Below are positions 1 to 1,262 of a DNA stretch of 64,000 bases, piece after piece. Every line of letters begins with the position of its first letter. Positions within the stretch are counted from its first letter, which is position 1. Source of the DNA: Thermithiobacillus tepidarius DSM 3134 (GTDB lineage: Bacteria > Pseudomonadota > Gammaproteobacteria > Acidithiobacillales > Thermithiobacillaceae); NCBI RefSeq assembly GCF_000423825.1, contig NZ_AUIS01000006.1:62001-126000 (forward strand), written 5' to 3'. The translations under genes were made by a program, and so were the position numbers. The notes beneath the pieces were generated by a model, which saw only the letters and a list, made by a program, of their open reading frames with translations, did no database searches and had not been told where the DNA came from.

Positions 1-1226
1 CGGTCGAACGGATCGTTGGCGAAGATGTCCGTGGCAAACGGCTGGTTCCACATGGGATTGGCGACGACGATGTCGTGCTGCTTGATGGTCCCGTCCGCGT
101 TGCGGAATTTGGGATTGATCATCGTGTCGCCACGCGCCAGCTCCACCTCCATGTCGTGGATGATCGCGTTCATCTGCGCCACGGCGTAGCTCTCGGCCTG
201 GAGCTCCTGGCCGGAGAGCTTGAGCGGCACCTTGCTGGTCGGGTCGAGTTCACGGGCGACGAGCTGCAGCTTGATCAGCAGGCCTGCCGAGCCGCAGGCA
301 TAGTCGTGACAGGTCTCGCCCGGCCTCGGCCGCATGATATGGGCCATCAGGAAGCCGACCTCGGTCGGCGTGAAGAACTCGCCCGCGCTTTGGCCCGAGC
401 CTTCGGCGAACTTGCGCAGCAGGTACTCGTAGGCCCGTCCGAGGAAATCCGGCTGCACGTCGGCCAGCCCCAGCCGATAGCGCGGGTCGGAGAAGGTCTC
501 CACCACGCCGCGCAGCTTGGCCGGGTTGATGTCGCGCTCGCCGTTCCGTTCGGCGGCGAAATCCACCACGTCGATGACGCCCGAGAGCGAGGGGTTCTGC
601 TTGACCACCGCGCGCACGGCCTTGGTCAGGTGCTCGCCGATGTCCTTCGGCGCGGTGCTGCGCTTCTTGTCGTCGAGCGGCCAGTCGTACTGCTCGCGCC
701 CGCTGATCATCGCCCAGCGTGCTTCGGGCGGCAGATAGAACCGCAGCAGTGAGTGGTCGGACTCGGCGATCTCCAGCGCAGTGGGCCGATCGCCGTATTC
801 CTCGGCCAGCCGCTCGATCTCGTCGTCAAAGACGTCGGACAGCCGCTTCAGGAAGAGCAGCGGCAGCAGGTAGTCCTTGAACTTGGCCGCGTCCTTCTCG
901 CCCCGGATGGAGCAGGCCGCGTCCCACAGCATCTGCTCCATGGGCTTGGTGGTGGGCGTCGCGGCTGTTGCGCGCCGGCCGCGACGGCGGGAGACTTGGA
1001 CGGCTGCTTCCGGGGCATCCTCGGCGGCTTCTTCGACCCCGGCCTCGCGGGCGAGTGCCATGATGGCCTCCTGTGCCGCGCGTTGGGGTTTGGTGTCACC
1101 ACCTTCCCAGCGGTTGACCGTGGCGAACGAGACCCCGAGCCGCTCGGCGAGCTGCTCCTGGGTGAGATCGAGCTTGGCGCGGATGGCGCGAAGTGTGGCG
1201 GGTAGAGCTTGTGCTTGTTTTGTCAT
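1..1226 (-). CDS. hsdM: Type I restriction-modification methyltransferase HsdM with N-terminal HTH (partial)
   Basis: N6-adenine methyltransferase subunit of a type I restriction system; the gene runs off the left edge after 408 codons. Residues about 12-45 form an XRE-like helix-turn-helix ([20 protein letters not shown]). A charged linker (RRRGRRA, about 80-86) leads to the HsdM N-terminal helical domain (about 95-230). The catalytic domain follows, with [10 protein letters not shown] (282-291), the SAM-binding loop [10 protein letters not shown] (308-317) and the target-adenine motif as NPMW (390-393) instead of the usual NPPF. I recall NPMW from one HsdM subgroup. The start is the ATG before the HTH; it has no Shine-Dalgarno and lies directly downstream of a -10 box. 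Specificity and nuclease subunits would be to the left, outside the window. The family call is secure. Autoregulation through the HTH is inference. Confidence 0.9.
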
Positions 1227-1262
1227 GTTTGCGATATTTGCAATATCGCATACGCTTGTCAA
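1227..1262 (-). promoter_or_regulatory. hsdM promoter with overlapping palindromic operator
   Basis: On the minus strand a perfect -35 TTGACA (1257-1262) is followed after 17 bases by AAATAT (1234-1239). The predicted transcription start falls at about 1226-1227, on the start codon, so the message would be leaderless. A perfect inverted repeat GCGATATT-TGC-AATATCGC (1231-1249) covers the -10 region. An operator there would block polymerase and suits the HTH at the HsdM N-terminus. The -10 matches consensus at only three of six positions. Confidence 0.6.

Follow-up and report, generated by a model that had tools for sequence, protein, structure and literature searches.

EcoKI, the classic type I restriction–modification system, has the same hsdM, hsdS and hsdR gene set as the locus described here, and to our knowledge its HsdM carries no helix-turn-helix (HTH) domain. 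It has two weak promoters and a separate hsdR (PMC12707154), whereas the present genes form one operon in the order M-S-R. M.EcoRII, M.Ecl18kI and M.SsoII (PMC12707154; PMC3874152) share with this locus an N-terminal HTH on the methyltransferase and, as predicted here from sequence, an operator-like element over its own promoter; autorepression of the kind that these enzymes exert would therefore be expected. Each of these is one polypeptide, a type II methylase whose R gene is independent, whereas the present methylase serves as M in a type I M-S-R complex, with target recognition in HsdS and R in the same operon. The predicted leaderless start and direct-repeat operator also set it apart from the M.EcoRII kind. 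By analogy, it seems to be for type I what the methylase-repressors M.EcoRII and M.Ecl18kI are for type II. The open-access literature that we searched contained no description of an HsdM with a fused HTH that acts on its own promoter.

In enteropathogenic Escherichia coli, a type I hsd operon is repressed by RptR, a free-standing protein, through three direct repeats of 9 bp that cover the −10 (PMC12255303). RptR shares with the system proposed here the control of such an operon, the number and length of the repeats over the −10, and conservation of both site and protein. RptR is a separate 9-kDa protein of a different fold, with a TAGCTA site 31–58 bp upstream of its start codon (PMC12255303), whereas here the candidate regulator is HsdM itself, encoded by the first gene of the operon, and the repeats enter the reading frame. 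They read ATATNGCAA and lack TAGCTA; neither the TAGCTA palindromes nor the 9-kDa stand-alone protein of the RptR type is found at this locus. In Mycoplasma gallisepticum, a C protein encoded upstream of hsdMSR apparently represses the hsd operon as a whole (PMC12707154). C proteins (PMC12707154; PMC4824078) resemble the present system in their XRE-type HTH fold, leaderless transcripts and operators on their own promoters; they differ in being small, independent proteins whose first effect is usually activation, whereas here the HTH is part of a methylase of 612 amino acids and not the product of a separate small gene ahead of the R gene.

The window, a 64,000-nucleotide stretch of the Thermithiobacillus tepidarius DSM 3134 genome, holds 408 of the 612 codons of this hsdM (Table 1); beyond its edge, hsdS and then hsdR follow downstream with overlapping starts. 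PADLOC assigns the three genes to type I (MTase_I, E = 2.2e-151 for the full HsdM; Specificity_I for hsdS; REase_I for hsdR), and Pfam places HsdM_N at residues 96–245 and N6_Mtase at residues 258–406, the latter cut by the window edge. With hsdS and hsdR adjacent, the locus is a type I restriction–modification operon, hsdM-hsdS-hsdR. The M-S-R order with overlaps recurs in most homologues. Their HsdM and HsdR are around 80% identical to the copies described here, and their HsdS has a median identity of 36%.

As a preliminary description had proposed, an XRE-like HTH (Pfam HTH_3, residues 12–47, E = 4.9e-10) forms the N terminus of HsdM. AlphaFold places its helices at residues 8–19, 23–30, 34–42 and 49–62, in a block with pLDDT values of 85–92 between residues 11 and 60. 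The recognition helix (approximately residues 34–42, SFATVNRWE) is nearly invariant overall, and N38, R39, W40 and E41 are invariant in the homologue alignment A1. The HTH model resembles C.BclI, C.Kpn2I, C.Esp1396I and P22 c2, with weak E-values, and the modelled linker to the HsdM body is probably flexible.

Table 1. Features of the hsdM promoter and 5′ region in the window; offsets in brackets count from the A of the ATG
Feature	Coordinates	Strand	Basis
−35 box TTGACA	1257–1262	−	sequence and homologue matches
−10 box AAATAT, TGC just before (extended −10)	1234–1239	−	AAAYAT conserved at −13 to −8
21-bp palindrome TGCGATATT-TGC-AATATCGCA, 9-bp arms, 3-nt centre	1230–1250		covers the −10
Inverted half-site TGCGATAT (−24 to −17)	1243–1250		homologue comparison
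Direct repeat 1 ATATTGCAA (−20 to −12)	1238–1246	−	homologue comparison
Direct repeat 2 ATATCGCAA (−11 to −3)	1229–1237	−	homologue comparison
Direct repeat 3 ACATGACAA (−2 to +7), holding the start codon and codon 2	1220–1228	−	ACA bias at codon 2
ATG start codon, predicted transcription start (leaderless)	1224–1226	−	7-nt gap after the −10; no Shine–Dalgarno
hsdM 5′ part with N-terminal HTH	1–1226	−	gene runs on to G000:C4:61388
XRE-type HTH domain, residues 8–62	1041–1205	−	Pfam HTH_3 12–47 and AlphaFold helices
Basic linker from HTH to HsdM body, residues ~68–91	952–1025	−	pLDDT <50 at 68–87 and 89–91

Upstream of hsdM on the minus strand, TTGACA and AAATAT are separated by a 17-bp spacer, and the ATG follows after a further 7 nt. 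AAATAT matches the sigma-70 −10 at 3 of 6 positions and a generic promoter scan makes no call, so its reading as a −10 rests on conservation across the family; the two-box promoter that had been proposed is kept there. The palindrome that had been reported over the −10, GCGATATT-TGC-AATATCGC, is exact at 1231–1249, and one further pair extends its arms from 8 to 9 bp. It occurs once in the window, where shuffled sequences predict none, and once in the genome, and we found no other operator site in the genome at up to three mismatches.

We compared 68 non-redundant upstream regions drawn from 80 loci (77–98% identity) found in one scan of genome contigs; because retrieval relied in part on peptide patterns in the HTH and HsdM, the sample leans towards close relatives. 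The 80 loci come from isolates of Pseudomonadota and Actinomycetota and from metagenome-assembled genomes assigned to many other phyla, labels that may be partly wrong; the isolates alone represent the two phyla. Conservation sets in sharply at −36, ends at around +8 and is absent above −40, with a conserved sequence from −36 of TTGAC...TGY.ATATAGCAAAYATAGCAAACATGACA. A match to TTGACA at 5 or 6 of its 6 positions occurs in the searched stretch in 55 of the 68 regions (5 of 68 in a background stretch), and most of the 68 have a match of at least 5 of 6 near the position of the −35 in the window.

The conserved element consists of 9-bp direct repeats (ATATAGCAA / AYATAGCAA / ACATGACAA) and one inverted half-site (TGCNATAT), in an array that spans the −10, the start codon and codons 2 and 3. 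We read it as three putative direct half-sites (consensus A-Y-A-T-n-G-C-A-A) and one inverted half-site (TGCnATAT), positioned as in Table 1. Nine-base self-match between −22 and +9 is 0.565, against 0.304 expected (z of approximately 25), and all other lags have z of at most 11. The palindrome is one realisation of this larger element, in which the inverted half-site faces direct repeat 2. Near-full palindromes (at least 9 of 10 pairs) occur in 5 of the 68 homologues only, the window among them, which rules out the palindrome alone as the conserved operator. The expectation in the preliminary description that homologues with the HTH would keep the palindrome thus fails for its full form; among the axes scanned, however, none is more palindromic than its own (0.51; median, 0.26), and the direct-repeat operator is present in nearly all homologues.

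Median pairwise identity is 0.58 between −24 and −1, compared with 0.44 at fourfold-degenerate sites of the same genes and 0.25 in DNA further upstream, and the element has a GC content of 29% where its genes have 64%. Where codon 2 encodes threonine it is ACA in 47 of 53 cases, against 91 of 1,182 threonine codons (8%) further into the genes; the constraint therefore reaches into the reading frame at the level of DNA. When the window was left out of the matrix, its promoter still scored 58.1, and the next best score, 15.3, fell on the same site read on the reverse strand. Identity above that of fourfold-degenerate sites, low GC content, the codon-2 bias and the matrix score together suggest that the element is likely to be a protein-binding site under selection, beyond its function as a promoter.

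The leaderless start put forward in the preliminary description gains support from the same comparison, as a prediction. A Shine–Dalgarno core is absent in 67 of the 68 homologues (43 of 68 in the background), an in-frame upstream start is missing from 20 of the 68, and a stop falls between −39 and −3 in 15. These observations, with the position of the −10 and the operator lying over the start codon, would fit a transcript that begins at or beside the A of the ATG. We rejected a start at the upstream TTG on this frame evidence.

The element goes with the HTH. HTH–HsdM proteins lie on one side of one branch in the tree (93/78), with a sister clade that lacks the HTH, and the six nearest HsdM loci without the HTH (49–51% identical in the body) have no element (matrix scores of at most 11.4). 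All five HTH–HsdM loci outside the training set have it, scoring 46–58 with the same matrix, although several resemble training loci (L086 and L087 with L007, L088 with L015, and L213 with L057). A 26-mer of the element, allowing up to three mismatches, is present in 4 of the 5 genomes with HTH–HsdM among 369 scanned, and at two further places (reversed control, 0), which we judged to be chance: one inside a sugar-transporter gene (G359), the other near a gene without HTH or hsdM (G095). The strict 26-mer has no match in 2.9 million viral contigs; a looser 19-mer matches there at 75 places, two of which precede HTH–HsdM genes and the others of which look like chance. Searches for the HTH in plasmids and phages returned only remote XRE matches, and the plasmid relatives of HsdM, among the matches listed, align from around residue 94 onward, without the HTH. 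Because the element goes with the HTH–HsdM clade and is missing from sister genes without the HTH, the HTH of HsdM is the likely binder. A host regulator common to mycobacteria and burkholderias seems unlikely.

We consider it probable that HTH–HsdM binds this operator and represses its own M-S-R operon by negative feedback. The XRE HTH at the N terminus would bind the tandem 9-bp half-sites and the inverted half-site, in an operator that would extend over the −10 of a leaderless promoter, its transcription start and the first codons; the bound protein would block RNA polymerase and lower transcription of the whole hsdM-hsdS-hsdR operon, and the feedback would fix the dose of M, S and R. Steric repression would be the simplest outcome, as the half-sites lie over the −10, the start and the first codons. 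Homologue comparison thus speaks for the direct self-regulation through a promoter site that had been suggested earlier. The further suggestion of a built-in controller of methylation during island transfer is unsupported as it was put: because the three genes overlap at their starts and belong to a single operon, R would fall along with M and S under repression, and feedback would set the dose of the system instead of placing M ahead of R. Some points sit less well with self-repression. The weak sigma-70 match of the −10 would also fit an activated promoter, how 9-bp direct repeats would fit an HTH dimer of the P22 or C-protein kind is not obvious, and the operator differs in actinobacterial members and in the most diverged relatives, as described below.

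Another role for HTH–HsdM, as a sensor of unmethylated DNA, is a tentative reading that we regard as rather unlikely. Assembled M2S would be drawn onto unmethylated targets, either in a naive chromosome after transfer or in incoming phage DNA, and the freed promoter would raise expression of the whole M-S-R operon until methylation was complete. For M.EcoRII, repression is reported to depend on methylation of its target sites (PMC12707154). If HTH–HsdM were such a sensor, the system would be the type I counterpart of M.EcoRII, and a self-contained 45-bp promoter–operator–start cassette would explain immediate function after moving between phyla.

HTH–HsdM could also bind the element as C proteins do, activating at low dose and repressing at high dose, with the weak −10 as the promoter in need of help. 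The 3-of-6 match to sigma-70, the resemblance of the HTH model to C proteins (at weak E-values), the often leaderless transcripts of C genes (PMC4824078) and the presence of several half-sites that differ in quality all point this way. However, every half-site overlaps or lies downstream of the spacer and −10, and no site is conserved at the −35 or further upstream, the position that C-type activators occupy; we infer repression and hold dual control to be unlikely. It is improbable that the element serves solely as a strong, portable leaderless promoter with its start region, and that the HTH binds elsewhere in another role, such as DNA targeting or dimerisation. The spacing of TTGAC, AAAYAT and ATG is nearly constant among homologues, as such a promoter would have it, and AT-rich starts favour leaderless translation, but a promoter requires neither the 9-bp periodicity nor the inverted half-site nor ACA at codon 2, and the sister hsdM genes without the HTH lack the element.

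Some type II systems are regulated by promoter methylation (PMC12707154), and M2S might bind the element through HsdS or methylate it. The target of a type I system changes with HsdS, the one further subunit with sequence specificity, which diverges while the element stays constant, so the element is not the variable target of HsdS; HsdS-directed binding was rejected on this ground, and control of this kind is highly improbable. That the repeats are instead translated, from a protein start at the TTG of the −35 box, is barely credible: the frame is open upstream in the window and this TTG is in frame in 30 of the 68 homologues, but the missing upstream starts and the stops noted above, the lack of a Shine–Dalgarno sequence and the position of the −35, which varies between −36 and −35 and so breaks the frame, all speak against it.

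If a type I methylase does carry its own regulator and acts on an operator shared by distant bacteria, this would be a directly testable answer for one clade. It would also show a defence operon fitting promoter, operator and start codon into approximately 45 bp, a cassette that could give expression at a controlled dose in very different hosts.

The operator varies among more distant members. Actinobacterial loci L051, L053, L059, L060, L075, L078 and L081 have a common variant, approximately TGTCATATCACTATGCAAAYATAACATACATGAC, from which L067 deviates, with the inverted half-site around 5 bp further upstream; mycobacterial-type members have this shift and keep repeats 2 and 3. In the most diverged HTH–HsdM relatives (L126 and L134–L136), whose bodies are 59–65% identical, the element no longer takes this form. 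At L134 the sequence is TTGACATATCACTTGCTATAGCAGATGAT, which includes a related TGCTATAGCA core but lacks the leaderless spacing. HTH and operator might have diverged together in these deeper relatives, four sequences in all. In L134, L135 and L136, on contigs classed as viral, an inverted ATCAC..TATAGCA..ATGAT overlaps the promoter upstream of ~2480, and is possibly a co-evolved operator.

Downstream of hsdR and on the same strand are DrmA-like and DrmB-like genes identified by PADLOC (L003 2098–6864, minus strand; G000:C4:50098–54864), and the restriction operon therefore sits in a defence island. Between the operon and the DrmA-like gene lies a sigma-70-family factor (L003 6914–8128, minus strand), and the far end encodes a NERD-helicase protein (L003 488–2089, plus strand). 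On the other side, the window encodes a Fic/DOC-family protein with DUF4172 (2288–3433, minus strand) and, beside the operon, a TacAT-type toxin–antitoxin pair in which a TacA-like antitoxin gene (PF08681; 4197–4463, plus strand) overlaps a GNAT acetyltransferase gene (4460–4954, plus strand). Three related AlpA/excisionase-like HTH_17 genes (1342–1569, ~2054–2290 and ~5032–5440, all on the minus strand) encode proteins that start MEVVHLNQ(K/R)QLA. One of the three copies has apparently decayed, and their presence suggests repeated insertions or duplications next to the operon.
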